Positions 3,269 through 37,926 of a stretch of DNA of 40,427 bases are shown piece by piece. A program made the position numbers and the translations under genes. A model generated the notes under the pieces. That model saw only the letters and a list, made by a program, of their open reading frames with translations. It made no database searches and was not told the DNA's origin. The DNA is from an uncultured Eubacteriaceae bacterium. Lineage in GTDB: Bacteria > Bacillota > Clostridia > Lachnospirales > Lachnospiraceae. The stretch is from positions 1 through 40,427 of the forward strand of contig CAMEUH010000002.1 in assembly GCA_945938055.1 (NCBI GenBank). The letters are read 5' to 3'. The number at the start of each line of letters is the position of its first letter. The stretch's first letter is position 1.

Positions 3269-3271
3269 CTT

Positions 3272-4249: not shown

Positions 4250-4276
4250 ACCATTACCTCCTAAGCTCAGTTCTAC

Positions 4277-6432: not shown

Positions 6433-6445
6433 ACTCTTCCTCCAA

Positions 6446-7015: not shown

Positions 7016-7019
7016 AATT

Positions 7020-9267: not shown

Positions 9268-9284
9268 TTCCCACCTCCAGATTA

Positions 9285-10493
9285 TTACATTTTCGAGTCT
9301 AAAGATTTTCCTTTCTCAATGTGATTGAAATTAGGAAGATATTCCTGAATAATTTTTACAATATTTTCTTTTGATGTTTCTTCCTTTTCAAAGGAATTAT
9401 CAAGTTTTAATAAAAGCTGCATTAATGATTCTTTTTCCGGAACAGACTTATTAACAATAACGCCTAACGCATTAAATCTATTATTATCCACAGATTCCTC
9501 TGCTGTAAAGAACTCCTCATAATCCTTCTCTCCAGATGTATCGGATTTTGAATAATGCACCGGATATCCTTTACTCCCTGACCTTAAATTGATAGATTTT
9601 TCAATTGCGTCTTCGTCAGAATCACATTCCAATACTTCAAACCCATGTTCCTGTATAAGTTCGGTAGCAATTCTATCAAATGTCATCATCTGTGCCTTCT
9701 TAAGCTTTGGGAAAAAAATCTCCCTATTATTTCCAAGCATGCATGACAACATACAAATCTGACCACTCTCCTCAGGTGAAACAAAGTATCTCTTAACATC
9801 CATTGGTGCACCAATGGGTTGTAGTTTTGATATTCTTGCCAAAAAACCTGCCGGCAAAGAACCATTTGAAAATGCCACATTGGCAAAGCGTGCTGTCTTT
9901 ACCGGGAATTTATCTGAATACGAAAAAATCAAATCCTCCATAATTCGTTTACTTGCTCCCATAATATTTACCGGATTAGCAGCTTTATCTGTCGATACAC
10001 AAAAATATTCTTCTGGCGGAAATTCTACCAATAAATCGAGCAGCCTTTTTGCATGTAAAACATTATTTTTCAACAACGCTTCTACGGAATAGATATCCTT
10101 TTCCGAACGTACATGCTTATGGGCTGAAAAGTTTCCAATGATATCAAATCCTCCACGCTTTTGAAACATTTTTCTGAAAACATCTGAATTAAAGTCCATT
10201 GGATACGGAATATAATCCTCCGGGACATACATTCCCCTTATGCTTCTAATATCCCTGGTTAACTCAGCCAGTGCATTCTCATTTATATCCACAACTACAA
10301 GCGATGCAGGTCGAAAAGGAAGTATTGATTTAACAAACGAGGAACCTATGCTTCCTGCTCCTCCAATAACCAATACACTTTTTCCCTCTATTTTCTGCGT
10401 TAATTCCTTCTCATGTTGTTTTATATCGCTTAAAAACATACTTTGAGGTCTCTTAATTACTTTTTCATTTATAAACGTATCAAGATTAAACAT
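9285..10493 (-). CDS. legB: NDP-sugar 4,6-dehydratase-type SDR (polysaccharide biosynthesis protein; LegB-like)
   Basis: GKSVLVIGGAGSIGSSFVKSILPFRPASLVVVDINENAL, NFSAHKHVRSEKD, VSTDKAANPVNIMGASKRIME are CapD/LegB family motifs. Confidence 0.85.
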   Translation of the reverse strand: MFNLDTFINEKVIKRPQSMFLSDIKQHEKELTQKIEGKSVLVIGGAGSIGSSFVKSILPFRPASLVVVDINENALAELTRDIRSIRGMYVPEDYIPYPMDFNSDVFRKMFQKRGGFDIIGNFSAHKHVRSEKDIYSVEALLKNNVLHAKRLLDLLVEFPPEEYFCVSTDKAANPVNIMGASKRIMEDLIFSYSDKFPVKTARFANVAFSNGSLPAGFLARISKLQPIGAPMDVKRYFVSPEESGQICMLSCMLGNNREIFFPKLKKAQMMTFDRIATELIQEHGFEVLECDSDEDAIEKSINLRSGSKGYPVHYSKSDTSGEKDYEEFFTAEESVDNNRFNALGVIVNKSVPEKESLMQLLLKLDNSFEKEETSKENIVKIIQEYLPNFNHIEKGKSLDSKM

Positions 10494-10524
10494 AATTTCC
10501 TCACTTATATTTATTCAAAATATT

Positions 10525-11583
10525 TTAAATAATCTTCTTTAATGCCTCCAACAACACATCCATATCCTTTGTATCCAACGCTCCCAAATGTCCTACCCGA
10601 AACAGCTTTTCCTTCAATTCTCCACCATTAGGGCACACCCATATACCATAATCCCGTTCCAATGTTTCAAATATTTCATATGCTGATAATCCCTCTTCTA
10701 CCATAAGCGGAGTTACCGCATTGGACAATGAAGGAGAGGAAATCCTAAACGGCAGATCTTTTATTCCGTCCCGAAAATATGAAGCCAGTTCAGCAATCCG
10801 CTGATTTTCTGCCTCAATACCCTTTTCACACAAACTCTCCATCCTTGCATGTATCTGCAACAAGATACTTACAGCCGGTGTAAATGGTGTCTGTCCACGT
10901 TCCCCATTCTTTAACGCATCCGCAAGATTAAAATACATACTTGCAATCTTTCGGTGATAAACTCTGTTCACAGCATTCTCTGACAAGACTAAAATCGATA
11001 TTCCCGGCGGTACAGCAAGTGCTTTCTGTGACCCTGTTATCATAACATCAACATCCAACTCCGACATATTAAGTGGATCCGCAAGGAAAGCGCTGATTGC
11101 ATCTACTACCAGAAACAATTTATTCCTCTTGCAAAAGTCAGACACTAATTTCATGTCATACAGCTTTCCAATAGATGTCTCATTCATATTGATAAGAAAT
11201 CCCGTGTATCCTTGATTTTCATATGGTTGTAACATTTCTTCAGTAAGTTTACTTTCAAACGATACTATTATTTCAGTATATGGAATTTCATGAATCTCAC
11301 ATAATTGTGCAAATCGATGTCCAAAACTCCCTCCATTCACCACTAATACTTTATCCGATGAATCAAAAGAATTCATTACTGCTGCTTCCATTGCTCCCGT
11401 TCCGGAAGCTGTCAAAAACACTACCCTCGAACCTTCTGGTGCATATGTAAGCTTTTTCATCATTTCTTCATTTTCTAGCATTAACTTTGAAAAACTTTGA
11501 TTTCTAAAATATGGTGTTGGTTCTGCTCCAATATTCAGAACTTCTTTATATTCCTGTACCGGTCCTACTGTAAAATTCAACAT
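10525..11583 (-). CDS. Class V aminotransferase (alanine-glyoxylate / 2-aminoethylphosphonate-pyruvate transaminase-like)
   Basis: MLNFTVGPVQ...FLTASGTGAMEAAVMNSF...LVVDAISAFLADPLNMSELDVDVMITGSQKALAVPPGISILVLS. Start moved to 11583, preceded by an aggaag RBS. Confidence 0.85.
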   Translation of the reverse strand: MLNFTVGPVQEYKEVLNIGAEPTPYFRNQSFSKLMLENEEMMKKLTYAPEGSRVVFLTASGTGAMEAAVMNSFDSSDKVLVVNGGSFGHRFAQLCEIHEIPYTEIIVSFESKLTEEMLQPYENQGYTGFLINMNETSIGKLYDMKLVSDFCKRNKLFLVVDAISAFLADPLNMSELDVDVMITGSQKALAVPPGISILVLSENAVNRVYHRKIASMYFNLADALKNGERGQTPFTPAVSILLQIHARMESLCEKGIEAENQRIAELASYFRDGIKDLPFRISSPSLSNAVTPLMVEEGLSAYEIFETLERDYGIWVCPNGGELKEKLFRVGHLGALDTKDMDVLLEALKKII

Positions 11584-11617
11584 ATTATCACACTTCCTGC
11601 CGTAAACCAGCATAATC

Positions 11618-12448
11618 TTATTGATATTTTCCTAGATCAAAATCTACAATACCATGATTTTTAATTCGTTTTTCTACTGGAGGGACTTCCATATAATGAT
11701 CCCCAAATGTATATCTTAAATAACTATCATAGTCTTTGGGAGCATAAAATCGATATCCTTCAAATTCCAATTCCGTTAACTCTGTAAAATATTTTAATGG
11801 AAATCCGTTTGCATCCTCTATCCCATGCCAACCTATAATTCCCACTTTCGAACAATTGCTTTCCGTATATTCTGCTGCCATTTTTTCCGTTACAGAATAT
11901 ATTAATTTTTTTGGTATAATGCATGCCAAAGACCATGCAATTCTTCCTAACAGCGTTTCACTTGTATATCTGGCTGTCCTGGCATATAATACTTTTCTGC
12001 AGAACTTTGCTATCTTATTATGTCTTTTCCTTGTTTTTTCATTGTCCGGTATGCCATCACACGGAAAAATGTCAATAAAAATACCTCCATGCATTTTCAG
12101 ACGTTCCTGTCCTATTCGGACCGCTTTGGTTCCATTCATTCTGATTTTGCTATATAACCATGGATATCCCTTATCATTATTATAATTCTGAAATGTCATG
12201 TTAGAAGATAATTGACCTGACACTTTACAGAATTTTTCATACTCACTTCGCAACATTCGTACATCGATATCATCATCCCACGGAATAAAACCTTTATGTC
12301 TTACTGCTCCAAGTAAACTTCCACCTTCAATAATATATTTAATATTATTATCTCTGCATACCCGATCCAATTCTCTCAAGATCTGAAGTTGCACGGAATG
12401 CATTTTCTGTAATTCGGCATCTGTTAATTCTACTTGCTTTGTTTTCAT
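11618..12448 (-). CDS. LicD family phosphotransferase
   Basis: ILRELDRVCRDNNIKYIIEGGSLLGAVRHKGFIPWDDDIDVRMLRSEYEKF: LicD signature. Confidence 0.93.
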   Translation of the reverse strand: MKTKQVELTDAELQKMHSVQLQILRELDRVCRDNNIKYIIEGGSLLGAVRHKGFIPWDDDIDVRMLRSEYEKFCKVSGQLSSNMTFQNYNNDKGYPWLYSKIRMNGTKAVRIGQERLKMHGGIFIDIFPCDGIPDNEKTRKRHNKIAKFCRKVLYARTARYTSETLLGRIAWSLACIIPKKLIYSVTEKMAAEYTESNCSKVGIIGWHGIEDANGFPLKYFTELTELEFEGYRFYAPKDYDSYLRYTFGDHYMEVPPVEKRIKNHGIVDFDLGKYQ

Positions 12449-12468
12449 TTTTATTCCTCATGTCAAAA

Positions 12469-13230
12469 TTACTTTTTCCTTAATATTGCATACCAATGGC
12501 TTGTTTCCGATAATTCTTTTTTATCTAATTGTTCAAAATAACCTTCCTTGACAATATCGCATTCAGCAACTAATGGAGCAAGCATCTCCAGATATTCCTC
12601 TCTTGTGCGATAAATTGCATCATAATTATCATCAAGACTCTCTGACCAAATATGATTCAGAGTCAGTCTTTCTTTGACCCCTACGCTTTCCTCTATGTAA
12701 ATAATAGAACCTTGATTTACAATATTTCCTAAATTTCTGTAACATTCCCTCAAGTCACCGTCATTAATATACATTGACACTCCAGCAATAATAACCGTGT
12801 CAAATTTCTCATCTGTTATTGTAGGTGTTGAAAAAATATTTTGAAAATTACTATTTATAAACTTTGCCTTTGGCTCGTTCTCATAACGCTTTGATGCAGC
12901 TTTTGTCATTTCTAAAGAGAAATCCGTTCCAACATATCTTCCCCAAGTAGGTAAAACATTTTCAGCCCATCTTCCAATTCCGCATCCAATATCCAACACA
13001 CTATGTGTTTCCTTAACATTTAAGAAGTTTAATACATAATCCTTCTCAAACTCATGCCATTTCTTCGCATAATCCGGATTGTTGTCTCCCAAAAGCACTG
13101 TTGTATACTGACTTTTTTCACCATTCAGGTATTTTTTTGCTCGTCTATCATAGAATTCCTGAATATTGCTTCCGCTCACATCAACTTTCCTGGAATAGAT
13201 TCTATTTTGATTATCCATCACAATCTCCAT
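12469..13230 (-). CDS. Class I SAM-dependent methyltransferase
   Basis: VLDIGCGIGRWAENVLPTWGRYVGTDFSLEMTKAA motif I/II. Confidence 0.88.
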   Translation of the reverse strand: MEIVMDNQNRIYSRKVDVSGSNIQEFYDRRAKKYLNGEKSQYTTVLLGDNNPDYAKKWHEFEKDYVLNFLNVKETHSVLDIGCGIGRWAENVLPTWGRYVGTDFSLEMTKAASKRYENEPKAKFINSNFQNIFSTPTITDEKFDTVIIAGVSMYINDGDLRECYRNLGNIVNQGSIIYIEESVGVKERLTLNHIWSESLDDNYDAIYRTREEYLEMLAPLVAECDIVKEGYFEQLDKKELSETSHWYAILRKK

Positions 13231-13277
13231 TCAACACAATGTATTTTAAAATTATATCGACATTTTCAATCAATATA

Positions 13278-13517
13278 TTAACATTCAATTACTCCAACAC
13301 CTTTTTTGATTAAACGATCCCTGTATACACTGAAATTTGCAGAACTTTTCTCCGTTAATATTACCGTCTTTCCTGCACCTCTAACACCAGTTACCATGCA
13401 TACCTGATAGGGTGGATTTTCATCAGAAAAATTGTCAATAATTTCATTTTTCTGCATTACCCTTTCTATATAGTTAATTGGTGATTTTCCAAAGGCTAAA
13501 GTAGATGGATTCTTCAT
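13278..13517 (-). pseudogene. AAA-family ATPase remnant: N-terminal P-loop segment joined to a C-terminal-like segment
   Basis: MKNPSTLAFGKSPINYIERVMQKNEIIDNFSDENPPYQVCMVTGVRGAGKTVILTEK (Walker A GVRGAGKT) runs straight into SSANFSVYRDRLIKKGVGVIEC and a stop; only 79 aa, with no Walker B or core. Confidence 0.6.
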
Positions 13518-13525
13518 TCTGCTCC

Positions 13526-13570
13526 TTTATAACTTTTTATAACTCCAAAATATTTTTATAACTTTTTATA
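13526..13570. repeat. Direct repeat TTTATAACTTTTTATA x2 upstream of the ATPase remnant
   Basis: Identical 16-mers at 13526-13541 and 13555-13570. Confidence 0.7.
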
Positions 13571-13615
13571 TTTCTTTTCAACTCTTTTTTCAATGTCCTA
13601 ATGAGCACCTACAAC

Positions 13616-14965
13616 TTATATAATCCCTCTTTTTCTGACAAATTCTTCCGTTATCCCTGTTATCGCAATGGACTCTCCTGCAGTCAGTTTGTAACTCTGT
13701 TCTCCAATTCCATGAATTTTAGCCATAAATTCACTAATTTCATAGCGCAATCCATCGCCAATAAATTTAGGTTCATAATGCTCAATGACCGTCTCATCTT
13801 CATAACGTACATCAAATTTTTCAGTCAGCCACCAAGGCGACTGTGCAATCACATATCCTTTAGCTCCTGCAACCACCAATTGCCCCTCTGACTTTACTGC
13901 CATACCAACTTTAGCTGTTGCCATAGCATTTTTATAACGAATCTGAATCTTTGTGTAATCATCGGTTCCAAGTTCATTGTCAATACTGTCAAATGTAACC
14001 GATTCATAATCCTTACCTAATATCTTAATAATTGGCATAAGTGCATTTCCACCATATTCAAGAAATGCCCCACCATATTTTGAATCCATTCGTTCTCTGG
14101 AATTAATTTCTGCAATACGCGTAAAGCAAGCCTCAACATCCTTAATTTCTCCAATTTTTCCACTTTGAACCACATTGAGTAGTTGTTGAAACCCTGGACA
14201 ATATGCCGCCTTAATTGCTTCCATCAAAACTACATTTTTTTTCGAAGCAAGCTCATACAATTCCTCACTTTCACTTTTTGTAAAAGCAAGTGGCTTCTCA
14301 CACAAAACATGTTTGCCCGCATTTAATGCTTTTTGGGCATACTCATAATGTGTCTCATGGGTAGAAGCAATATAAACGGCATCTACCCCCTGAAGAAACT
14401 CCTCATAATCCTCTGTTAGGACAACCACTTCATATTCCGCACAGTTTTTCTGAAAGTTTTTCACACTCTCCAGATCTGGATTATAAGCACTGATTACAGC
14501 CATACCACTAGCGTACCTTGCCTCCGCCAGAAAACGTTGTGCAATACGTCCTGTCCCCACAAGTCCCACTTTAGTAATATTAAATGCACTACCTCGAAGC
14601 ATTGTCGATGAAATATTGGGCGTTCTTTCAAGATAAGTTACTTTACAAAAAGCATTCAAATAATCAAATGTGCCTACCCAGTCTGAACCAACTGTAAATA
14701 TATCAACACTATACTTCTGAATGTCTTCAATCTTTTGCCCTTCATGATCCTCTACAATAATCATGTCGGCAAGCCCGGTATTTTTAACATTCTCAATCCT
14801 CTTCACAACAGGATCAATCACATTTAACTTCCCCCTTGCCTCATCAAAATGCTCCGTAGTAACACCGACAATCAGATAATCCCCTAACGCCTTTGCCCGT
14901 TCTAATAATTTATAGTGACCTTCATGAAATAAATCGAAGGTTCCGTATGTTATTACTTTTGTCAT
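13616..14965 (-). CDS. Fusion protein: TagD-like cytidylyltransferase + Gfo/Idh/MocA oxidoreductase
   Basis: N-terminus VITYGTFDLFHEGHYKLLERAKALGDYLIVGV (HxGH) and RTPNISSTMLR (ISST motif), then KVGLVGTGRIAQRFLAEARYASGMAVISAYNPD...HVLCEKPLAFT. Confidence 0.92.
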   Translation of the reverse strand: MTKVITYGTFDLFHEGHYKLLERAKALGDYLIVGVTTEHFDEARGKLNVIDPVVKRIENVKNTGLADMIIVEDHEGQKIEDIQKYSVDIFTVGSDWVGTFDYLNAFCKVTYLERTPNISSTMLRGSAFNITKVGLVGTGRIAQRFLAEARYASGMAVISAYNPDLESVKNFQKNCAEYEVVVLTEDYEEFLQGVDAVYIASTHETHYEYAQKALNAGKHVLCEKPLAFTKSESEELYELASKKNVVLMEAIKAAYCPGFQQLLNVVQSGKIGEIKDVEACFTRIAEINSRERMDSKYGGAFLEYGGNALMPIIKILGKDYESVTFDSIDNELGTDDYTKIQIRYKNAMATAKVGMAVKSEGQLVVAGAKGYVIAQSPWWLTEKFDVRYEDETVIEHYEPKFIGDGLRYEISEFMAKIHGIGEQSYKLTAGESIAITGITEEFVRKRGII

Positions 14966-15870
14966 AATAATCCGTGACTCCTTAGATATTCTTCCTGCTT
15001 TTTATAATATGGGTAATCGTGTGCTCTTCCTGCATTATAAGATGGTGTCATGTAATCACCGTATGTCTTTTTCAAAATTGCATCATATCCGCATGGTACC
15101 GATACTTCCATCTGTTCAAACGGCACCATTATCGTATCGCAAAACCATTCCTTGTTCAGATAATACTCCGGCTGATAACATATATTAGTGGGAAAATATG
15201 TTAATTGATCGCATTCCTCCTCATGAAATAATCCGGCAATCCTGTCAAGTAATAACCACAACTGGTTTTCTTCATTGACACCTCTGGTTATTTTGGTCTG
15301 GCATAACGACTCAATCTGTTCTAAATAGCCTTCTATCTCACCATTTTCAGTATATGTTTTATAATTCTTCGCCGCAGAATATACAACCGTATATAAATTT
15401 CTCTGAAGCTGTGCCTGCTCCCGGTCTCTTGGCACAAAATCAAGCGGTACAATATCAATCCCACATATGTAAGGGCATCCATAAAACCTTTTCCGCCGTT
15501 GCTCATCAAGTATAATCTGCCTGGTATTCATGACCGAGGTGGTAGGCTGACTGTGAGTCGGATCCGCATAAGAGCTGCTGTTGTAATATCCCTCTGGAAG
15601 TTCATCCGAAAGAATCCTCATCAATGTCTGATAGTCCTTACGTTTCATGGCAATATCAATGTCATCATCCCACGGAATGAACCCTTTATGCCTTATGGCT
15701 CCCAGAAGGGTTCCCCAGTGTGCATAATAGGTAAGTCCATAATCCGTACATATGCGGTGGATTTCCTGCAGTACTTCCATCTCAACCGCCCATACTCTCT
15801 TCATCATTTCCGATACGGTAAACCCACATCTTATCTCTTCTTTAAAAAAATCCTCATTGATTGCAAGCAT
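14962..15870 (-). CDS. LicD family phosphotransferase (second copy)
   Basis: VLQEIHRICTDYGLTYYAHWGTLLGAIRHKGFIPWDDDIDIAMKRKDYQTL. Start set at MLAINEDFF (15870) with an aaggat RBS, just after the upstream GT2 stop; 4-bp overlap with the fusion gene. Confidence 0.9.
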   Translation of the reverse strand: MLAINEDFFKEEIRCGFTVSEMMKRVWAVEMEVLQEIHRICTDYGLTYYAHWGTLLGAIRHKGFIPWDDDIDIAMKRKDYQTLMRILSDELPEGYYNSSSYADPTHSQPTTSVMNTRQIILDEQRRKRFYGCPYICGIDIVPLDFVPRDREQAQLQRNLYTVVYSAAKNYKTYTENGEIEGYLEQIESLCQTKITRGVNEENQLWLLLDRIAGLFHEEECDQLTYFPTNICYQPEYYLNKEWFCDTIMVPFEQMEVSVPCGYDAILKKTYGDYMTPSYNAGRAHDYPYYKKQEEYLRSHGLL

Positions 15871-15880
15871 ATTTTCATCC

Positions 15881-16897
15881 TTAAATGCACTTAATATAGT
15901 TTCTATATTTTTCCTCATCAAAGCCTTCTGCAATCGCGCGATATAGCGGCATCTGCTTTACCAGAATCGAGGAGTACGGTGAATATGTAATATCCTTCAC
16001 TTCTCTTAATGCCGTCTGGGTTAATGGCTGATACATGAAGTAATCCAGCGTTATGCCTCTTGCTTTTGCAAAATCCAGCGTTTCATATAAATACGTATGT
16101 AAAAAGTATAGCTTTATTTCCTCATAGAATGGTTCAAAATGCTCCGTTTTCTTCATAAATTCCCAGACCAGAAGCTGCACTGCTGCGTGCTCTAAAAGAG
16201 TCTCCTTTGCTTTCATGTCATTGCGCATGGTGCCATTATTATTCTGCCTGTATATGTACAATTTGTCTGGCATAACGGCAAATCGTTTCGCCGTATAAAG
16301 CAGTGGATACACAAATAACGGTTCTTCATATACTACATGTTCCGCATACTGTACTCCCGCTTTTTCAACAACTTCCCTTCGATACAGTTTATTCCAGCAT
16401 CCGTACGTCAATGTTTCGCTCAGTAACATTTTCTTTCTGTCCTCCGGCGAATCAATCTGTATGAATTCATCTTTTATCGGCTGTTTACTGTCCACAATAC
16501 CGATTTTGTCAAAATAATAGTCAAAACCAAATTGAACAATGTCTGCATCCAGTTTCTTTGCTTTTTCATATACTTTTTCAAAAATATCCAGAAGCACCCA
16601 GTCATCCGCATCAACAAAAGCGATATATTCACCGGAAGCATACTTTAACCCTTCATTTCTTGCTCCACCCTGTCTTCTGTTTTCAGGAAGATCGATTATG
16701 GCAACGGAATCCGGATAAGCTCTTTCAAATTCCATGAGCATTTCCCATGTTTTCCCCTCATCGGTAGATGCATCATTAACAAAAATAAGTTCTAATGCTT
16801 CCATCCCGATGGTTTGCTGGACCAGTGATAAGAAGCACTTCGGAAGCCATTTAGTTGCGTTAAAACATGGAATAATCACGCTAACCTTTTTATTCAT
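15881..16897 (-). CDS. Glycosyltransferase family 2
   Basis: KVSVIIPCFNATKWLPKCFLSLVQQT...IFVNDASTDEG...RRQGGARNEGLKYASGEYIAFVDADDW; aaggag RBS before the 16897 ATG. Confidence 0.92.
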   Translation of the reverse strand: MNKKVSVIIPCFNATKWLPKCFLSLVQQTIGMEALELIFVNDASTDEGKTWEMLMEFERAYPDSVAIIDLPENRRQGGARNEGLKYASGEYIAFVDADDWVLLDIFEKVYEKAKKLDADIVQFGFDYYFDKIGIVDSKQPIKDEFIQIDSPEDRKKMLLSETLTYGCWNKLYRREVVEKAGVQYAEHVVYEEPLFVYPLLYTAKRFAVMPDKLYIYRQNNNGTMRNDMKAKETLLEHAAVQLLVWEFMKKTEHFEPFYEEIKLYFLHTYLYETLDFAKARGITLDYFMYQPLTQTALREVKDITYSPYSSILVKQMPLYRAIAEGFDEEKYRNYIKCI

Positions 16898-17955: not shown

Positions 17956-19125
17956 CTACTCTTCCCTAAGTGCCAGTTCCACATAAATTCTTGCCTGATG
18001 AAGATTACCATCATTTAAATAAGCATTGGCAAGATAATTATACACCCGGATTCTTTGCTCCTTGTCCTCTTCCAAGATTTTCTGAATTGACAGTGATATA
18101 AATTCTGTAGATAAATTCTTTTCCAGAATAAAATGGTATAATGCATTATCTGCCAGACTTTCCGTAAGCAGTTCTTTCAGGTGAACATATAATTTCGTCA
18201 ATTCTTTATAATCCGTGGAATAGGATACCAGATTCCTTTTTCCTGCTCTTTCTTCTGTCGTCATTATTTCTGCAAAGGTATATATCGCCGCCAAATCTCC
18301 CTCTGTATCCGAATCCTTAAAAAATAAGTCAGGCCTCTTTGTATTTACTTCTTTTAAATATGCCGTAACCTCTTTATACTGACCATCCTGTAACAATTTT
18401 GCCGATTTTGCAATCACTTCCTTGGTCTCTGACTTAACCCCCATCAGGCCAACGGGTGCCTCATATGGTTTTAACTGATTCTGTCTGACCCAAACCATAA
18501 CCAGACGTTCCGCCAGAAATCCAAACACACGTCGGTCATAATCATCATATCCTGTCATATCGATCTGTTTCTCTACCTCAAAAAGAATGGTAAAGAGCCA
18601 CTCTGCATACTGATTCATCAGTTTCCGGCTGGTAACCATCATGTTGGCATAATACATGCAGCATCCGTCCATGACCGTATCATAGGTTAACAGATACTCC
18701 GGATAATATTTTTTTATAGCCTCCCTTGTAAGGTCAAGATCTCTTGCATAATGCTTTTTTGCATAACCCTCGTAAATACTTTCGCCTTCCGGATATATCA
18801 GCCGTCCTGTAACGATTACATCATATTTCTTTAGAATTTCTTCCAGCTCTGATGCCTGAAACAGTTCTTCCTTTTCATTAAGAAAATATCTTCTGTAATG
18901 ACAAAGACCTGTTATGTCACAATCCGATCCATTCTTCCACATCCAGTAAAGCCCTGATAATTCACTATAATTAGGATTCTTCGCAGAAATATTATCTCCC
19001 GTGTTATCCGTAAGATATCCCAATGGCTCATGCAATGCCGCTCCTACCTGCAACGGAATATAGATTTTATCCTCCGGCACATCAAATTCCTTATGTGCCA
19101 TTACATATATCCTTATGTCCTTCAA
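17956..19125 (-). CDS. DUF4422 domain putative glycosyltransferase
   Basis: IRIYVMAHKEFDVPEDKIYIPLQVGAAL...LSGLYWMWKNGSDCDITGLCHYRRYF is typical of DUF4422. Confidence 0.88.
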   Translation of the reverse strand: MKDIRIYVMAHKEFDVPEDKIYIPLQVGAALHEPLGYLTDNTGDNISAKNPNYSELSGLYWMWKNGSDCDITGLCHYRRYFLNEKEELFQASELEEILKKYDVIVTGRLIYPEGESIYEGYAKKHYARDLDLTREAIKKYYPEYLLTYDTVMDGCCMYYANMMVTSRKLMNQYAEWLFTILFEVEKQIDMTGYDDYDRRVFGFLAERLVMVWVRQNQLKPYEAPVGLMGVKSETKEVIAKSAKLLQDGQYKEVTAYLKEVNTKRPDLFFKDSDTEGDLAAIYTFAEIMTTEERAGKRNLVSYSTDYKELTKLYVHLKELLTESLADNALYHFILEKNLSTEFISLSIQKILEEDKEQRIRVYNYLANAYLNDGNLHQARIYVELALREE

Positions 19126-19144: not shown

Positions 19145-19170
19145 GACCCAAGTATAACCATACCTGGGTC
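19145..19170 (-). terminator. Hairpin terminator after the 122-aa gene
   Basis: GACCCAGGTATGGTTATACTTGGGTC followed on the minus strand by ATTCTTTTAGG. Confidence 0.6.
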
Positions 19171-19186
19171 CACTTCTCATACTCTT

Positions 19187-19555
19187 TTAATACTCTGCTG
19201 TTACCTTCTCTATCTGCTTTACAAATTCCAGAACTCCGCCCTTAAGCGCAACAGCAATCAATGCATCCTCTTTCTTTGACAATGCATCTCCCAATTCCTT
19301 TACTGCCTCATTCACCTTTTCCTTTTCAATCAGGACTTCCTTCTCATTAATCACGTCCATTGTCCTGTTAATTATTTCAATAATCCAGTTAATTCCCTTC
19401 ACCACTTCATCCAGATACGCATCCGTATCTAACAGTCTGTTTCCGCTCAGTTCTTCGGAAACATTTTCAATTCCCTTGATAAGCTTTGCACTATATTCAT
19501 GTGCAACCTGTAACGCCTCTATCTGCTGCTGTCTGTAATCATCCATGATTTTCAT
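19187..19555 (-). CDS. Uncharacterised 122-aa alpha-helical protein
   Basis: ORF MKIMDDYRQQQIEALQVAHEYSAKLIKGIENV...; predicted helical; good RBS (aggagat); own sigma-D-like promoter and terminator. Confidence 0.75.
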   Translation of the reverse strand: MKIMDDYRQQQIEALQVAHEYSAKLIKGIENVSEELSGNRLLDTDAYLDEVVKGINWIIEIINRTMDVINEKEVLIEKEKVNEAVKELGDALSKKEDALIAVALKGGVLEFVKQIEKVTAEY

Positions 19556-19615
19556 CTCCTAAATTCTTGTTTTCTCCATGCGCCCCGTTCAATCCAGGCT
19601 GATACTATATATTAA

Positions 19616-19643
19616 TATATCGGCAGTATTCTTTAAAATATTA
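19616..19643 (-). promoter_or_regulatory. Sigma-D/sigma-28-like promoter (TAAT-N16-CCGATATA)
   Basis: Minus strand TAAT ATTTTAAAGAATACTG CCGATATA, about 60 nt upstream of the 122-aa ORF. Confidence 0.65.
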
Positions 19644-19702
19644 TACATCCAATATAAATTATGTTATACTTATTCCATATAGTCCAACCGGAGGAACGCC
19701 AC

Positions 19703-20665
19703 ATGCCAAAAGTATCCATTATTATTCCTGCATATAACGCCGAAAAAACCTTAGCTGCCTGTCTGGGCAATCTGGTTCATCAGACACTCCCAGATATTGA
19801 GATTATCCTTGTAAATGACTGTTCCACAGATAACACTCTGTCTATTATGATGGATTGTGAATCACAATTTCCTGAGAAAATCATTGTTGTAAACTCCGAC
19901 AAAAACCGTGGCGCAGGTGGTGCAAGGAATGTGGGACTATGCTATGCATCCGGTGAATATATTGGTTTTGTGGATAGTGATGACATCGTCGTTCCCGAAA
20001 TGTATGAGAAATTATATCAAAAAGCCATTGAGGAGAATTATGACATTGTTGACTGCGGCTATTATAACGAGGCAACCGACAGTGCCATGGTCCATACCTC
20101 AGATGAGTTATCCGGTACATTGAATGACTGGAAGAGAAGTGAATTAATTGCCAGTGGCGGCTATTTCTGGTCCAGAATTTTTAAAAAATCATTTTTTGAC
20201 GAATTAAACATCCAATTCCGCGAAAACTGTATTCTGGAGGATTGCGAAACACTTATGCTGACTTTTGCCAAGGCACATAACATCGGCAATGTAAAGGAGA
20301 TTCTTTACTGCTACAAAAATTACAACACTTCCATTTCAAAGTGTACCAATGCAGCTACCTTTTTCCGTAACTCCACTGCCGCCATTGAGGCCATTTATAA
20401 CACCTTGTCTGTTCTGCCAAACTATCCGGGAATTCAGAAAGCTGTAGAATACTCCATTGTTAATTTGTGTGCACTCAGCATTGATGCCTGCCTGACAAGC
20501 GGGGCAAACGACCCGGAATTCATAAATAAAGACCGTTATAAGAAAATTGCAGGATATCTTCAATCCATGGTAAAGATTCCGTTCGACGATAACAATTTTA
20601 TTAGAAATAAGATTTCTAAGGAAGAACGAAACACTTTAAAAGAGTTACTTTCCTATTCCTTTTAA
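19703..20665 (+). CDS. Glycosyltransferase family 2 (only plus-strand gene in the window)
   Basis: MPKVSIIIPAYNAEKTLAACLGNLVHQT...NDCSTDN...RGAGGARNVGLCYASGEYIGFVDSDD; ggagg RBS before the 19703 ATG; upstream TGTTATACT extended -10-like element. Confidence 0.9.
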   Translation: MPKVSIIIPAYNAEKTLAACLGNLVHQTLPDIEIILVNDCSTDNTLSIMMDCESQFPEKIIVVNSDKNRGAGGARNVGLCYASGEYIGFVDSDDIVVPEMYEKLYQKAIEENYDIVDCGYYNEATDSAMVHTSDELSGTLNDWKRSELIASGGYFWSRIFKKSFFDELNIQFRENCILEDCETLMLTFAKAHNIGNVKEILYCYKNYNTSISKCTNAATFFRNSTAAIEAIYNTLSVLPNYPGIQKAVEYSIVNLCALSIDACLTSGANDPEFINKDRYKKIAGYLQSMVKIPFDDNNFIRNKISKEERNTLKELLSYSF

Positions 20666-21706
20666 CCGCTTTAACGCCTCCAGTGCCGGTTCATATTCTC
20701 CACACTGCTTATAATATTGTCTGGCTTTTTCATACTCACCGAGGCACTCACGGATAACACCGGCATTATAGTACGCCTTAAAACTGTTGCACCCTTCTAC
20801 CTTGCAGAAAGAATAGGTAACCGCTTTTTCAAATTCCCTGACAGCCTCCTCAAACATGGCGTTATTCATATATGCAAGCCCCATAAGGAATACATAATCA
20901 GCCGATACGGCAAACTCCTTATAAATATTCTCTAAAAACATCATTTCCCCATACCGTTTCAACTGTAACAGGGCATAAGCATACGTTTCCACCATATCCT
21001 GTACATACTCAAGTCCCGGATTCAGATCAAAACCAAGTCCCTGTTCAAAATACTCTGCTGCCTTATCATATTCCTGGCACATGTAATAACTCTTGCCAAG
21101 CTGATAAAAAGTATATGGGTCTTCTCCCATTTCTTTTAAATCCAACAGCAGAAGCTCAATATTTCTCTTTGCCTTTTTCTTTTTTTCCTCTTTCGTTCCC
21201 TCATATCCACTATGACCGATCTGAATGGGCACATTCTGATGTTCAGCACTTTTTCCATCTTTGCGTACTACCTGTTCATGAATCCGTCCTCTGTATTCAT
21301 AAAATCTTCGGTCAAACATACGGCTGATTCGTTCATGCCCTGATTCTTTGCCATCCACGCCATCATAGTTGTTTACTCTTTCAATCCGCCCAGCCATCTC
21401 AGGATTTTCACGCAATAATTGTTCCACCCGTCTCACATCAAACTGCTCAATCCATTCATCACTATCCAGAACCAGAATCCAATCATTATTTGCCAGACTA
21501 ACAGAATAATTTCTTGCCTTGGAAAAATCATTACACCATACAAATTCACCTAATACATCTGCATAGTTTTTTATAACCTGCTTGGTTGCATCCATGGAGC
21601 CTGTATCTACCACTACAATTTCCAAATCATATAACTTTAATGATTTCAAACATTTTTCTAATTTTTCTACTTCATTCCTTGTAATAATACATACGGACAA
21701 CTTCAT
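20645..21706 (-). CDS. Glycosyltransferase family 2 with C-terminal TPR-like repeats (SunS/WaaE-type)
   Basis: MKLSVCIITRNEVEKLEKCLKSL...VVDTGSMDAT...WVLVLDSDEWI followed by helical YYNAGVIRECLGEYEKARQYYKQ repeats. Confidence 0.9.
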   Translation of the reverse strand: MKLSVCIITRNEVEKLEKCLKSLKLYDLEIVVVDTGSMDATKQVIKNYADVLGEFVWCNDFSKARNYSVSLANNDWILVLDSDEWIEQFDVRRVEQLLRENPEMAGRIERVNNYDGVDGKESGHERISRMFDRRFYEYRGRIHEQVVRKDGKSAEHQNVPIQIGHSGYEGTKEEKKKKAKRNIELLLLDLKEMGEDPYTFYQLGKSYYMCQEYDKAAEYFEQGLGFDLNPGLEYVQDMVETYAYALLQLKRYGEMMFLENIYKEFAVSADYVFLMGLAYMNNAMFEEAVREFEKAVTYSFCKVEGCNSFKAYYNAGVIRECLGEYEKARQYYKQCGEYEPALEALKRLKGIGK

Positions 21707-21721
21707 TGGACATCCTCACCA

Positions 21722-22879
21722 TTATTTGTTTTCTATCTCTGCAAACATCTTTTGAAAAGCCTTTTCATAACCATAACTTCTCACTTTTTCATGACCACAT
21801 TCTGCAATCTGTATCCGTTCGGAATCATGAGACAGATAATATTCTATCTTTTCCATCATATCCTCCGGACTGCTATACATTACCAAATCTTTTCCATCTT
21901 CAAAATGTTCTGCTATCCCAGCCTGATAATTGGTTAAACAGAATCCTCCGGCTCCAAGAATATCAAAGACCCTAAGTGGTACACCTGATGTAATGGAACG
22001 CATGGTAATATTTAAATTAATCTTTGAATTTCGGAAAACCTTTGGCATCTCCTCACAATATTCCACGCCCCCATGCGCCTTTACCGACGGGATGTCCTCT
22101 ATCCGGCCCTGGGTAAACAAATTTACCTGAAATCGCGACGCCGCCATAGACAACAGTTTCCGTCTCTCGGTTCCTGTCACCAGCTTATTCATCTGATTCG
22201 CCATGACAATGGAATCCGGAACGTTCATTCCCTGCAAATCCATATTTATGGCATGAAGATACTTTTTGGTGAACTCTTTATCCACGATTTCATTAATAAA
22301 GTTATATCCATAAACCTTCTGCTGTGCCTCTGTCAATGCATCCACAAATCCAGAGTAGTATTGCGGGATGTTATCCGAAAACATTGCCTCATTCTTTTTA
22401 AGATATAGGTTTCCCACAAAGCTGACATCATATTGATACCGTGTTCCCCGAATATCAGTACCCAGCAGTTTATCCAGCCGTTCCCTGTCTACCGCCAGCG
22501 GCATATAGAACAAATTCTGTACCTTGTATGCATCCAGAGTCTGAATTCCATCCTTTTCAAAAAGATAAATACGATTACAGTCATAATACACTTCCCTCTG
22601 AAATAAAGTATAATTAGGCCAGTCGTAAATCCATGATATATATATTTTCTTCATCTGATGACACATTCCTGATATCATGGGAAGAAAATCATATGAAAAT
22701 ACTATATCAATATCCTTTGCCATTTTCTCTGCTGCCTCCATGGCAGCCCGTCCATCCAGATATTCTTTTACATCCCTTTGCATCACAAGAACTTCATCCG
22801 CAATCTCTTTCAGATGATTCAGGGTATCCCTAAAAGAATTTTCATTCCAGCTGCAATATAAGATTCTCATTGAACACAT
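21722..22879 (-). CDS. CgeB-like glycosyltransferase (DUF3880 / Glyco_trans_1_2)
   Basis: ILYCSWNENSFRDTL...YFLPMISGMCH-type N-domain; C-domain SGVPLRVFDILGAGGFCLTNYQAGIAEHFEDGKDLVMYSSPEDM. Confidence 0.88.
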   Translation of the reverse strand: MCSMRILYCSWNENSFRDTLNHLKEIADEVLVMQRDVKEYLDGRAAMEAAEKMAKDIDIVFSYDFLPMISGMCHQMKKIYISWIYDWPNYTLFQREVYYDCNRIYLFEKDGIQTLDAYKVQNLFYMPLAVDRERLDKLLGTDIRGTRYQYDVSFVGNLYLKKNEAMFSDNIPQYYSGFVDALTEAQQKVYGYNFINEIVDKEFTKKYLHAINMDLQGMNVPDSIVMANQMNKLVTGTERRKLLSMAASRFQVNLFTQGRIEDIPSVKAHGGVEYCEEMPKVFRNSKINLNITMRSITSGVPLRVFDILGAGGFCLTNYQAGIAEHFEDGKDLVMYSSPEDMMEKIEYYLSHDSERIQIAECGHEKVRSYGYEKAFQKMFAEIENK

Positions 22880-23856
22880 TACCTCACTGTTTCAAACCAC
22901 CGAAGTATCTCTTTACTTTCCTCAGTCATGTTCTTATTCAGATAAAAATTATTCTGCCAGTTCTCCCATTTTCCGGCTGATATTTTCTTTAGACTTCTTA
23001 AGTTATCCATCAACTGAAAGGACGGATTTTCCTGATTCCAAAGACACATTCCAATTGCGCAGGAAAAACAGCTCAACATAGCATAATCCATTGCTTCCAA
23101 AACATTTTTCCCTATTTCCGGAATTTTGGAAGACTCTGGAAGAAAGGACTGTTTCAGGAAACCAACTGCTTCCATTGCATCCAGCATATCGGAAAATTTT
23201 TTCTGCTCATTTCCTGATTTTGAAGAGGACTGTTCATTATTCTTATAATAATATAATACTAATTTTACATTTCCTATTCTCTTTGCCAGCAAAACGACAT
23301 GTATCAGGAAATCCAAATCTTCATAAATAACACCTTCACGAATCCGGCATTGATTTTCTTTGAGCAATGAGGATCGAAATATTTTCGTTACTGCATAACC
23401 CACGCCGGCAATGATTTTTCCTCTCTTCTCATCATCCAAATCACCGATGACATCATCCCCATAAGACAATACTGACTTTCCCATGTTTTCTTCATAGTAT
23501 GCACAGTCTACAATATCGCAATCTTCTTCGGCTGCTTTTTGATATAGCTTTTCATACATCGTCCCATCAATCACATCATCGCAATCCATGAAGCCAATAT
23601 ATTCGCCTTCTGCCATACTAATTCCCATGTTTCTTGCCCCACCGGCCCCACGGTTTACTTCAGAACAAATCACCTTGATTTTATTCGGATATTGTTTTCT
23701 CCAATTTTCAAGAAGCTCTCCACTTTTATCCGTAGAAGCGTCATTCACCAGAATCAGTTCCATTTCTCCCAGGGTTTGTCCCGTCAGGCATTTCATGCAT
23801 CTGTCAATATACTTTTCTCCATTGTAAACCGGTACGATTACAGATACTTTTACCAA
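22879..23856 (-). CDS. Glycosyltransferase family 2
   Basis: KVSVIVPVYNGEKYIDRCMKCLTGQT...VNDASTDKSG...NRGAGGARNMGISMAEGEYIGFMDCDDV. Confidence 0.92.
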   Translation of the reverse strand: MVKVSVIVPVYNGEKYIDRCMKCLTGQTLGEMELILVNDASTDKSGELLENWRKQYPNKIKVICSEVNRGAGGARNMGISMAEGEYIGFMDCDDVIDGTMYEKLYQKAAEEDCDIVDCAYYEENMGKSVLSYGDDVIGDLDDEKRGKIIAGVGYAVTKIFRSSLLKENQCRIREGVIYEDLDFLIHVVLLAKRIGNVKLVLYYYKNNEQSSSKSGNEQKKFSDMLDAMEAVGFLKQSFLPESSKIPEIGKNVLEAMDYAMLSCFSCAIGMCLWNQENPSFQLMDNLRSLKKISAGKWENWQNNFYLNKNMTEESKEILRWFETVR

Positions 23857-23994: not shown

Positions 23995-24807
23995 TTACTG
24001 TAAGAGTGACAGTACACCCTGTGTTGACTGATTTGCCTGAGCAAGCATTGACTGACCAGCCTGAGCAAGAATGTTGTTCTTGCTGTACTCAACCATTTCT
24101 TCAGCCATATCAACATCACGGATACGGGATTCAGCTGCCTGAGTATTCTCGCTTGTTGCATCCAGGTTGTTGATAGTGTGCTCAAGTCTGTTCTGAAGAG
24201 CACCAAGTGTTGATCTCATTTCAGATACAGAATTGATAGCTGCCTGAATAGATGCCATTGCTGCACCTGCTGAAGAGAAAGAGCTAACCTTAAGTCCGCT
24301 GACCTGAAGAGTAGAAGCATTCATATTCGTAATAGAAATACCAATCTTCTGTCCACAGAGAGAACCAACCTGAAGATTCTTACCAGTAAAGGAACCATCC
24401 AGTAAGTTCATTGTGTTGAACTGTGTTGTAGAACGGATTCTGTCAATTTCAGATGTCAGCTGATCCATTTCCTTCTGAATAGCATCTCTGTCTGTTGAAG
24501 TATTGGTGTCGTTAGCTGCCTGTGTAGCTAACTCATTCATTCTCTGTAAGATGGAATGTGTCTCATTCAGAGCACCTTCTGCTACCTGGATTAATGAAAT
24601 ACCATCCTGTGCATTTGCTGAAGCCTTGTTAAGACCTCTAATCTGGCTTCTCATCTTTTCGGAAATTGTAAGACCAGCTGCATCATCTGCGGCTCTGTTA
24701 ATTCTATATCCAGATGATAACTTTTCTGTTGATTTTGCCTGTGCGTTTGTAACACTTCCTAAATTTCTGTTTGCATTCATTGCTGTCAGATTGTGCTGTA
24801 CTACCAT
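23995..24807 (-). CDS. hag: Flagellin 1 (short, D0/D1-type, 270 aa)
   Basis: MVVQHNLTAMNANRNLGSV...KSTEKLSSGYRINRAADDAAGLTISEKMRSQIRGLNKAS...C-terminal MAEEMVEYSKNNILAQAGQSMLAQANQ. Confidence 0.97.
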   Translation of the reverse strand: MVVQHNLTAMNANRNLGSVTNAQAKSTEKLSSGYRINRAADDAAGLTISEKMRSQIRGLNKASANAQDGISLIQVAEGALNETHSILQRMNELATQAANDTNTSTDRDAIQKEMDQLTSEIDRIRSTTQFNTMNLLDGSFTGKNLQVGSLCGQKIGISITNMNASTLQVSGLKVSSFSSAGAAMASIQAAINSVSEMRSTLGALQNRLEHTINNLDATSENTQAAESRIRDVDMAEEMVEYSKNNILAQAGQSMLAQANQSTQGVLSLLQ

Positions 24808-24942: not shown

Positions 24943-26583
24943 TTAAATATTTTTATACTCAGTTATAAACCTTCTTCGCGATTCTTCATATGCCTGTTCT
25001 GTTGCCGGATTTTTCCCTACACTTACTTCATGAAGAACACCCGCCATCCCACAATTCAAAACTCCGGCCCTATAGCCCGCTCTTTGAAATTCCATAGTCT
25101 GAGAGACATCATAAAAATGGAAATTTGTAAATAAATCGTCCCTCCATGCAACATCAGCACTGGTTGCAATCAGCACCCCATCCAGACATTGTACCGGGAT
25201 TATTAATTGCATAAAAGTCTCCTGAATTCCCTGTCCATCTGTTACAGACCGAAGCACATGAAGCGTCCAGTCCTGATATAAGCATAAGTGTTTATCCTCC
25301 ACGCTGCTATCCCACCATATACCATTCTTTGGCATTTTACTGGTGCCTGCCACTCCAAGCATCTGATAATGAGAATCTTCTAAACCCCGTATCAGTCGTT
25401 TTGTAAAGTCTACATCAAACAAAAACGTATCCTGATGGATGTAAATCTTATATACTGCATCAGATGCTCTCATTCCAATATTGTAGCCTTGGGTCATGCT
25501 TTTGGCATGAAAAATAACAAATACGCTTATTCTGTAATTTTCCGGTACATTTTGATACTGCAAATACAGCAGGACCTCTTCCACATAGCTTTCATCATTG
25601 GCACAAAGTATAAAAGAAATTTTGTTCGCATCCCTTTTTTTCGGCGGGTTAATTTTAGTCATATCCCATTCTTCTGCATCTAAATAATGCACTTCCAGTT
25701 CAGTTTTTGTACGCTCTCCGCAAAAAACTTCTCTGTTTACCCCGTTTATTCCTTTAAATGCATTGGCATATCTTTTTAATACTTCTGCTTTTTGTGTCTG
25801 TCCCAATTCTTCAATCAGCTTTGCAGTTTTTTCTAATACAGAAGCTGTATACAATTCATCAACAGAGCACTTTCCCACAACTGCCCAAAAATCAGCCGAA
25901 TCATTATATTGTTTTATAAGTTCTGCAACCTTCTTCTGTCCCTCTTCTAAAAAACCAAACCAGATACACCGGAATGCAAATTTGTATTCTTTCAATATTC
26001 TCGCAAAATCCGCACAATCAATATATTTGTCTGCGCTAAGCGTGTTCAGATCCCTTTTTCTTTCACAGGCTGTTATCTCCAGAATCATATAATCATAACG
26101 AATCCATTGATCAATAACTTTTTTAAACAGAAACGTATTATCAGAAAAAACAACATCCGAAACAAAACGATATGTATCTTCATATTCGCCCAGCATGATT
26201 CTCTCTTTGATTACTTTCTGTATTTCCTCACTAACCTTAACACCGTCCAGTTCTTCCGTACTTACCTCATTCAGATTTTCCTGTATAATTCTCAAATCCT
26301 GCGTATCGCATAATGTTACTGCCAAAAGATACTGCACATAAGATTTTTCACGTTCCCCATAATACAACTGGTAATTTCCAAACATAAACACTAATTCATA
26401 ATTGTCCGGGTACATTCTGCACCCTTCCTGTACCGTTTGTAATGCATCCTCCACATACCGCAGGTTTTCCTGAATAGAAGCCAAGTATATATAGTATTCT
26501 GCACTGTCATTCTTTTTCTCTTTCAAACATTGAAGCGCCCGTTCATATTCCTTCCGTTCCATTAAACTTCTAACCTGTTCCAC
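24943..26583 (-). CDS. TPR-containing glycosyltransferase (Glyco_tranf_2_5-like) between the flagellin genes
   Basis: Helical repeat N-terminus; C-terminus KISFILCANDESYVEEVLLYLQYQ...YKIYIHQDTFLFDVDFTKRLIRGL...MLGVAGTSKMPKNGIWWDSS. GTG start at 26583 preferred because of the GGGAGG RBS; track ORF begins at 26625. Confidence 0.82.
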   Translation of the reverse strand: MEQVRSLMERKEYERALQCLKEKKNDSAEYYIYLASIQENLRYVEDALQTVQEGCRMYPDNYELVFMFGNYQLYYGEREKSYVQYLLAVTLCDTQDLRIIQENLNEVSTEELDGVKVSEEIQKVIKERIMLGEYEDTYRFVSDVVFSDNTFLFKKVIDQWIRYDYMILEITACERKRDLNTLSADKYIDCADFARILKEYKFAFRCIWFGFLEEGQKKVAELIKQYNDSADFWAVVGKCSVDELYTASVLEKTAKLIEELGQTQKAEVLKRYANAFKGINGVNREVFCGERTKTELEVHYLDAEEWDMTKINPPKKRDANKISFILCANDESYVEEVLLYLQYQNVPENYRISVFVIFHAKSMTQGYNIGMRASDAVYKIYIHQDTFLFDVDFTKRLIRGLEDSHYQMLGVAGTSKMPKNGIWWDSSVEDKHLCLYQDWTLHVLRSVTDGQGIQETFMQLIIPVQCLDGVLIATSADVAWRDDLFTNFHFYDVSQTMEFQRAGYRAGVLNCGMAGVLHEVSVGKNPATEQAYEESRRRFITEYKNI

Positions 26584-26640
26584 GAAAAACCTCCCAAAGC
26601 TTACTGCCTTTATTATATCACACACTCCTGAAAACGAAAA

Positions 26641-26694: not shown

Positions 26695-27507
26695 TTAGCC
26701 TAAGAGTGAAAGTACACCCTGGTTAGCCTGATTTGCCTGAGCAAGCATTGACTGACCAGCCTGAGCAAGAATGTTGTTCTTGCTGTACTCAACCATTTCT
26801 TCAGCCATATCAACGTCACGGATACGAGATTCAGCTGCCTGAGTATTCTCGCTTGTTGCATCCAGGTTGTTGATAGTATGCTCAAGTCTGTTCTGAAGAG
26901 CACCAAGTGTGGATCTCATACTAGATACAGAATTGATGGCTGCCTGGATAGATGCCATTGCTGCACCTGCTGAAGAGAAAGAACTAACCTTAAGTCCACT
27001 AACCTGAAGAGTAGAAGCATTCATGTTGGTAATGGAGATACCAATCTTCTGTCCTGATAAGGAACCAACCTGTAAGTTCTTTCCTGTGAAAGTACCATCC
27101 AACAGATTCATTGTATTGAACTGTGTGGTTGAACGAATTCTGTCGATTTCAGATGTTAACTGGTTAATTTCCTTCTGGATAGCATCTCTATCTGTAGAAG
27201 TATTAGTGTCGTTAGCTGCCTGTGTAGCTAACTCATTCATTCTCTGTAAGATAGAATGTGTCTCGTTAAGAGCACCTTCTGCTACCTGGATTAATGAAAT
27301 ACCATCCTGAGCATTTGTTGAAGCCTTGTTAAGACCTCTTATCTTTCTTCTCATCTTTTCGGAAATTGTAAGTCCAGCTGCATCATCACCAGCTCTGTTA
27401 ATTCTGTAACCGGATGATAACTTCTCAGTTGACTTTGCCTGTGCGCTCTGCACTCCGCCTAAATTTCTGTTAGCGTTCATCGCTGTAAGATTGTGTTGTA
27501 CTACCAT
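26695..27507 (-). CDS. hag: Flagellin 2 (short, D0/D1-type, 270 aa)
   Basis: Near-identical to flagellin 1; start at MVVQHNL (27507) with aaggagg RBS, not the extended track ORF (27645), which would run through the promoter. Confidence 0.97.
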   Translation of the reverse strand: MVVQHNLTAMNANRNLGGVQSAQAKSTEKLSSGYRINRAGDDAAGLTISEKMRRKIRGLNKASTNAQDGISLIQVAEGALNETHSILQRMNELATQAANDTNTSTDRDAIQKEINQLTSEIDRIRSTTQFNTMNLLDGTFTGKNLQVGSLSGQKIGISITNMNASTLQVSGLKVSSFSSAGAAMASIQAAINSVSSMRSTLGALQNRLEHTINNLDATSENTQAAESRIRDVDMAEEMVEYSKNNILAQAGQSMLAQANQANQGVLSLLG

Positions 27508-27532
27508 AGTTTTGTCCTCCTTGAACTTAATG

Positions 27533-27548
27533 ATCGCATCCTTGCGAT
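27533..27548 (-). promoter_or_regulatory. Candidate CsrA-binding hairpin in the flagellin 2 leader
   Basis: Minus strand ATCGCA-AGGA-TGCGAT: perfect 6-bp stem with AGGA loop, about 21 nt upstream of the AGGAGG Shine-Dalgarno. Confidence 0.6.
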
Positions 27549-27585
27549 TCATGTGAAATTGTTTTGTGAGTTGCCTCACTGTTTC

Positions 27586-27605
27586 TAAGTAAGATGTCTT
27601 ACTTA
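27586..27605 (-). promoter_or_regulatory. Perfect inverted repeat at the predicted 5' end of flagellin 2 mRNA
   Basis: TAAGTAAGA-CA-TCTTACTTA on the minus strand (9-bp arms), a few nt downstream of the expected start site. Confidence 0.65.
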
Positions 27606-27614
27606 TTTGTATTA

Positions 27615-27641
27615 TATATCGGAGCAAATATGAAATACTTA
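27615..27641 (-). promoter_or_regulatory. Sigma-D/sigma-28-like promoter of flagellin 2 (TAAG-N15-CCGATATA)
   Basis: Minus strand TAAG TATTTCATATTTGCT CCGATATA. Confidence 0.87.
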
Positions 27642-27664
27642 ACACCGATTTATAATTTTTTTTA

Positions 27665-28144
27665 TTATTTTTTCTTATCCATGAATTGCGGTTCAGAATC
27701 CAGTTTAGTCATGTTCTTATAATAATTGCTGACTGCCCTACTATTTTTACGAGTTTCTTTAACCGCCTGCTTTACCTTAGAAAACTGATTCTCCACGCCA
27801 GCCTTAATTCTCTTCTCTTCTGCCTCAATGGATGCCGAGAGTTCAACTACTCTTTGAATCAATTTCTGCATTACGGAAATCTGCTGGGAATATTGGGATT
27901 TATTTTCCTGCAATGCCTCCCTCACCCTTTCATAAAGAGTCTCAAAGCCATCATCCAACTTATTGATTTCATCTATGTATCGGCCCTTTTCCTCAACAGT
28001 AGCATCCAATTCCTCCATTTCAAATCTTGCATCGGACACAATCTGTTTCTGGTGCACATTTACTTCCTGAATCTTTTCCAGCAAATGTATCTTCTTATTC
28101 AGACTGTCAATCATCAAATCAAGGTAACTGCCATTATTTTCCAT
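27665..28144 (-). CDS. Coiled-coil flagellar protein, FliT/FlgN-like chaperone candidate
   Basis: 159 aa, highly helical; directly after fliS; C-terminus YYKNMTKLDSEPQFMDKKK resembles FlgN/FliT-type tails. Confidence 0.6.
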   Translation of the reverse strand: MENNGSYLDLMIDSLNKKIHLLEKIQEVNVHQKQIVSDARFEMEELDATVEEKGRYIDEINKLDDGFETLYERVREALQENKSQYSQQISVMQKLIQRVVELSASIEAEEKRIKAGVENQFSKVKQAVKETRKNSRAVSNYYKNMTKLDSEPQFMDKKK

Positions 28145-37644: not shown

Positions 37645-37926
37645 CTATAATGCTAATTCCGACGAATACTCGTCTACTATCTTGTTGGCAAAATCCATGC
37701 CGCTGATATGATATGTTCCGGCACTCATCATTGCTTTAATTTCTGCAATTTTATCTTCTCTCACATCCGGAGCCTGGGATACTGCTGCCTTTGCTGTCTG
37801 AAACTCTTTGCCAAAGGTAGAAATCTCAACCTTGTCACTGCCATAAGTTCTGTCTGCTGCTTTTGTTTTATAGCTGGTATTCGTCTGATAAACCTGGCTT
37901 ATGGCATTATAAGCATCAATACGCAT
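37645..37926 (-). CDS. flgM: Anti-sigma-28 factor FlgM
   Basis: Short protein ending REDKIAEIKAMMSAGTYHISGMDFANKIVDEY, the FlgM sigma-binding region. Confidence 0.92.
   Translation of the reverse strand: MRIDAYNAISQVYQTNTSYKTKAADRTYGSDKVEISTFGKEFQTAKAAVSQAPDVREDKIAEIKAMMSAGTYHISGMDFANKIVDEYSSELAL

Follow-up and report, generated by a model that had tools for sequence, protein, structure and literature searches.

We propose, with moderate confidence, that P1, a small protein encoded among the flagellin and glycan genes of an uncultured Eubacteriaceae bacterium, is a four-helix-bundle protein of the cytoplasm that assists flagellin O-glycosylation and is made together with flagellin by means of sigma-28 RNA polymerase. 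The gene lies in a 40,427-nucleotide stretch of contig CAMEUH010000002.1, referred to here as the window. In the hypothetical mechanism, transcription by sigma-28 RNA polymerase would produce P1 alongside flagellin, P1 would most likely bind to the flagellin subunit or to the glycosyltransferase, perhaps to both, and it would present flagellin to the enzyme before export. We infer this physical contact, the function as an adaptor and the partner enzyme, which across most of the phylum would be Maf and in the host species would be a GT2/TPR, DUF3880 or DUF4422 enzyme encoded among the flagellin genes. What we observe, and describe below, is the P1 family, its predicted fold, its sigma-28-type sites, its genomic linkage both to maf and to flagellin genes, and a fusion with a Maf-like protein.

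By sequence conservation P1 is a real gene, a copy with 95% identity being found in a near relative (L030, JAQXXN010000223.1). That entry is labelled 'Thermoflexaceae bacterium' (Chloroflexota, NCBI) although its proteins are ~90% identical to those of the Firmicutes-like window, and the metagenome-assembled genome has probably been misnamed. The 122-residue open reading frame named in a sequence-only reading of the window is present at 19187-19555 (minus strand), but translation probably begins at Met4 to give a product of 119 residues, since both the spacing of the AGGAG element and the ortholog alignment point there. Specifically, AGGAG directly abuts the first ATG with zero spacing, so that the good ribosome-binding site claimed for the longer frame does exist but suits Met4, and Met4 is the point from which the 27 orthologs align (28 sequences including the window gene). 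The private hairpin terminator of the same reading is plausible, as the hairpin 3' of the stop codon has an 11-bp stem (-19 kcal/mol, z -3.0) that is kept in the near relative with one A-U to G-U change; a crude terminator scan of the orthologs gave 8 of 28 and is given no weight. That P1 forms a monocistronic unit is, however, unproven, because the DUF4422 gene begins on the same strand 61 nt past the stop codon and a sigma-A-like candidate promoter overlaps the sigma-28-type site. The features are collected in Table 1.

Table 1. Positions of P1, its putative signals and the neighbouring genes within the window.
Feature	Position	Strand	Basis or remark
Intrinsic-terminator-like hairpin, then T-rich stretch	19145..19170	-	3' of P1 stop; also in the near relative
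P1 coding sequence	19187..19546	-	119 aa from Met4; 122-aa frame extends to 19555
Shine-Dalgarno AGGAG	19556..19560	-	9 nt 5' of Met4; conserved in the near relative
Sigma-28 (SigD/FliA)-type promoter, TAAT-N16-CCGATAT	19617..19643	-	motif excess, orthologs, conservation in the near relative
Sigma-A-like candidate, ATAACA-N16-TATAAT	19640..19667	-	overlaps sigma-28-type site; alternative or second promoter; block conserved in the near relative
DUF4422 protein, first gene of downstream glycan cluster	17956..19125	-	Pfam PF14393, E 1e-83
GT2-TPR, DUF3880/Glyco_trans_1_2 (CgeB-like) and GT2 glycosyltransferase genes	20645..23856	-	between P1 and flagellin; third gene called by BLAST-level similarity only
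Flagellin fliC-a	23995..24807	-	sigma-28 site 24923-24897
TPR-glycosyltransferase (PF13712) between two flagellin genes	24943..26625	-	Pfam; candidate flagellin glycosyltransferase
Flagellin fliC-b	26695..27645	-	sigma-28 site 27642-27616; true start probably internal to this frame, past the site
flgM-like gene	37645..37926	-	sigma-28 site 37994-37968; assigned by operon position

Sigma-28 (late flagellar) control of P1 is well supported in silico, and with it the earlier claim of a sigma-D-like promoter (TAAT-N16) about 60 nt upstream. The site, TAATATTTTAAAGAATACTGCCGATAT, lies 61 nt 5' of the first ATG and 70 nt 5' of Met4 and has the form common to the sites of fliC-a, fliC-b, flaG and flgM; the flgM site, TAATGTTTTGCGTGGTTCTTCCGATAT, has identical N16 spacing, as the sequence-only reading had stated. 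In the window the motif TWAW-N16-CCGATAT has five matches where 0.08 would be expected, a count reached by none of 100 shuffles, and the five sites precede the two flagellin genes, flaG, flgM and P1. Across the draft genome there are 18 matches versus 3 with the reversed control, those outside the window being mostly intragenic. This motif was taken post hoc from the flagellar promoters of the window and adopted after the stricter GCCGATAW alone gave no genome-wide enrichment (6 versus 5), and hence the weight is carried by the in-window and ortholog comparisons, the latter being the key independent check. With fixed criteria, an equivalent site was found within 200 nt upstream in 12 of 28 P1 orthologs, P1 itself and its counterpart in the near relative among them, compared with a mean of 0.3 and a maximum of 2 in dinucleotide shuffles. 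Among the neighbouring ORFs that served as a control, 10 of 296 had a site (p 5e-9), and these included four flagellin or FliD genes and one orphan FliD-like gene. Between the window and the near relative the -35 and -10 elements of P1 are identical and the spacer differs. Set against the Butyrivibrio sigma-28 reference (-35 TAAA, -10 MCGATAa; PMC3720852), the region upstream of P1 carries the promoter sequence expected of a member of the late flagellar regulon. Of the TWAW-N16-CCGATAT matches that lie between genes and ahead of an ORF, the clearest in the draft genome, those of the window aside, is at 1993-2019 of L126 (contig C164); it precedes a 132-residue protein with no Pfam family (1569-1967), a candidate for a further late flagellar gene.

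It is very improbable that the sigma-28-type site is fortuitous and that P1 is driven instead by the overlapping sigma-A-like promoter. The latter has 10 of 12 matches and belongs to a block that the near relative retains, the strict sigma-28-type site is missing from about half of the orthologs, and both kinds of site can occur at flagellin genes of Roseburia and Eubacterium (PMC3720852), but the motif excess in the window and the ortholog count, set against shuffles and against control ORFs of which several are themselves flagellar, argue for the sigma-28-type site. Alternatively, the conserved sigma-A-like block could serve the GT2 gene on the plus strand as its divergent promoter. As the two sites overlap, dual sigma-28/sigma-A control of P1 is also possible.

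The AlphaFold2 model confidently predicts P1 to be a four-helix bundle (mean pLDDT 93.5; helices 2-33, 41-66, 75-91 and 94-116), in agreement with its earlier description as a helical protein of no recognised family. Neither P1 nor its 27 relatives gave a convincing Pfam or NCBIfam family, the matches in Pfam, NCBIfam and PHROGs being weak, scattered and at chance level, and PDB sequence profiles gave nothing below 0.015. A Foldseek search of the model against the PDB and viral libraries returned nothing at E ≤ 0.001; its best PDB matches were mainly designed bundles, which carry no information for a four-helix bundle. Inspection by eye showed neither a signal peptide nor a transmembrane stretch, and P1 resembles neither flagellin nor the hook or cap proteins, which leaves the suggestion of a secreted flagellar factor unsupported. 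P1 was also rejected as a homologue of FliS or FlgN/FliT (hhalign probability under 6%), there being no similarity to the FliS profile (PF02561) and a probability of 5.7% over 39 columns with the FlgN/FliT-like profile. Likewise, P1 was rejected as a Maf homologue, with no profile match to long Mafs, their C-terminal region included; the MptE-like/Maf_flag10 core is absent from P1 and is carried only by the linked or fused partner.

P1 is not the orphan it had been taken for. The host's taxonomic family, sampled by 299 genomes, has orthologs in 27 of them, and a broad superfamily lies beyond it, with other members beside maf. Flagellin is found in 26 of the 27 P1 genomes compared with 156/299 overall (p 2e-7), and the single P1 genome with no flagellin match is 72% complete and carries the orphan FliD-like gene; we count all 27 as flagellated. 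The orthologs adjoin genes for Glf, ManC-type, NeuB, DUF3880/Glyco_trans_1_2 and DUF4422 proteins, the DUF4422 gene being directly downstream of P1 in L030 and L034 and upstream in L037, and several have no glycan gene nearby. Among flagellated members of the family, PF01973/Maf is not associated with P1 (14/27 versus 53/130, p 0.30).

The main rival to the adaptor reading is that P1 is a FliS/FliT-like export chaperone, with flagellin or the orphan FliD-like protein as its client and no direct part in glycosylation, and that its maf linkage reflects a shared late-operon position. We judge this unlikely, if still worth serious weight. The predicted bundle is of roughly FliS/FliT size, about half of the P1 genomes of the family have no PF01973, and the orphan FliD-like gene is carried by 26/27 P1 genomes versus 90/130 of the remaining flagellated genomes (p 0.003), and in about ten of the 27 it lies convergent to P1; moreover, about ten distant homologues directly follow fliD. 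On the other hand, P1 relatives are tightly coupled and fused to Maf specifically, FliS and FlgN-like genes are already present in the window, and the profile comparisons gave no detectable kinship with FliS or FlgN/FliT, so that the chaperone of the sequence-only reading survives as a rival, with orphan FliD-like neighbours, but not as a recognisable relative of FliS or FlgN/FliT.

The orphan FliD-like protein itself (~450 residues, weak FliD_N/FliD_C matches) is encoded in 116 of 299 family genomes and in several lies near nusG/ribosomal protein genes; examples are L044:4628-5989, which bears a sigma-28-type site, L033:7941-9350, L056:3531-4862 and, in the window's own genome, contig C155:1873-3150. 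The window also holds a gene at the flgN position (37116-37631) and, between flagellin and fliS, a second FlgN/FliT-like protein of 159 residues that falls under the Pfam cut-off (27665-28144).

A profile search across the phylum gave a match in 49 of 399 genomes. The distant homologues are of two sizes, short (~118 residues) and long (~200 residues with an extra N-terminal region), and the P1 profile matches them at E 7e-18 and 7e-17, respectively. By this profile similarity P1 is a member of an unnamed superfamily, defined here, of small helical proteins beside maf. Outside the host's family, 48 loci were picked by sequence without regard to context, and a Maf-like gene (so labelled by a profile from 14 Maf-like proteins, several confirmed as PF01973) is immediately adjacent on the same strand in 36 of them. 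It overlaps or lies within 5 nt of the P1 homologue in 30, exact overlap values being approximate as ORF starts were set mechanically, and late flagellar genes are in view in 43. In genome G125 a 110-residue P1-like protein is encoded between flagellin and Maf, while in genomes G241 and G144 the P1-like domain forms the N-terminus of a 559-567-residue PF01973 (Maf-like) protein, and the top PDB match to the modelled fusion protein is the crystal structure of Maf, 5MU5 (E 6.5e-17). The short and fused Mafs stop ~25-40 residues past the core, but a C-terminal region of ~180 residues follows it in the several long Mafs that gave a match to the motif. The helical module may partly replace the C-terminal bundle missing from short and fused Mafs, although long Mafs are also accompanied by P1-like proteins and the two are not strict complements. 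We set aside a stretch in the 1079-residue G094 protein (L061) and weak matches in L057 and L058, which resemble chance matches between helical stretches.

These data also bear on whether P1 could regulate late flagellar expression, as an anti-sigma factor or a protein partner of the FliW/CsrA type. P1 is a small helical protein that appears to be co-regulated with flgM, and csrA directly precedes some of the distant homologues, but the recurrent coupling and fusion are to Maf rather than to regulators and Pfam/NCBIfam gave no similarity to any regulator family, making such a role highly unlikely. Of the three functions offered by the sequence-only reading, we favor the glycosylation adaptor, the distant relatives being adjacent or fused to Maf. 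The adaptor role is favored by the sigma-28 sites, flagellar co-occurrence, maf adjacency, Maf fusions and glycan-gene neighbours, and is weakened by the lack of a tie to Maf within the host's family, the orphan FliD-like neighbours and the several orthologs with no glycan gene nearby.

In the host, maf is absent from the window, where P1 is flanked by GT2, DUF3880, DUF4422 and flagellin genes. No flagellar-type Maf was found in the host genome (85% complete), and its PF01973 proteins show only a weak relationship to the Maf set and are encoded away from the flagellar cluster. For this reason, and because PF01973 is not associated with P1 in the family, we infer the adaptor role of P1 from its relatives. 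Nor would a helper of this type be universally required, since the Clostridium botulinum Maf, expressed in E. coli together with its flagellin, glycosylates it (PMC11339370). More tentatively, the P1 family could serve Firmicutes O-glycosylation as a general module for recognising flagellin, in partnership with structurally unrelated glycosyltransferases (Maf, DUF3880/CgeB-like and GT2). It would act in trans in most cases and at times as an N-terminal domain fused to Mafs that have no C-terminal helical domain of their own, and would set acceptor specificity and timing ahead of export.

The glycan cluster at 861-15933 encodes a NeuB-type synthase and a PhnW-like aminotransferase together with, as read from the sequences, a cytidylyltransferase-GFO-type oxidoreductase fusion and two LicD-like proteins, and may direct the synthesis of an unusual, possibly phosphoester-bearing flagellin glycan. 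Within it, a 79-residue ORF (13278-13517) resembling the N-terminus of a P-loop ATPase (GVRGAGKT) has no Pfam match and is probably a gene remnant.

Two questions are still open: how Maf chooses flagellin, for which no sequon is known, and how glycosylation is made to precede export (PMC11339370, PMC4065374). A widespread uncharacterised gene that often overlaps maf is a directly testable candidate partner. In the openly accessible literature searched, the passages retrieved from papers on Geobacillus and Clostridium flagellin-glycosylation loci do not describe P1. A P1 family would sharpen the annotation of such loci in many Firmicutes and is relevant to those gut commensals that are motile and have flagellins with a predicted or demonstrated pro-inflammatory effect (PMC3720852).

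The closest precedents are the flagellin-binding domain of FlmG (PMC7591256), the C-terminal helical domain of Maf (PMC11339370) and the FliS-type chaperones (PMC4065374). The Maf/FlmD glycosyltransferases (PF01973; PDB 5MU5) are adjacent or fused to distant homologues of P1 in flagellar operons, and the Maf C-terminal domain consists of helical bundles with a weak resemblance to flagellin export chaperones (PMC11339370), but P1 has no catalytic domain and no profile match to long Mafs. The export chaperones FliS, FlgN and FliT share with P1 a small size, a helical fold and a late-operon (sigma-28) context, and differ from it in sequence profile and in the recurrent Maf linkage and fusion of the P1 relatives. 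In Caulobacter, the specificity of FlmG comes from its N-terminal flagellin-binding domain (PMC7591256). By analogy, P1 would be a helical module that gives a cytoplasmic O-glycosyltransferase its flagellin specificity, mostly as a separate protein. On the published description of FlmG, the two would differ in that FlmG uses TPR repeats in cis, whereas P1 would use a non-TPR bundle mostly in trans.
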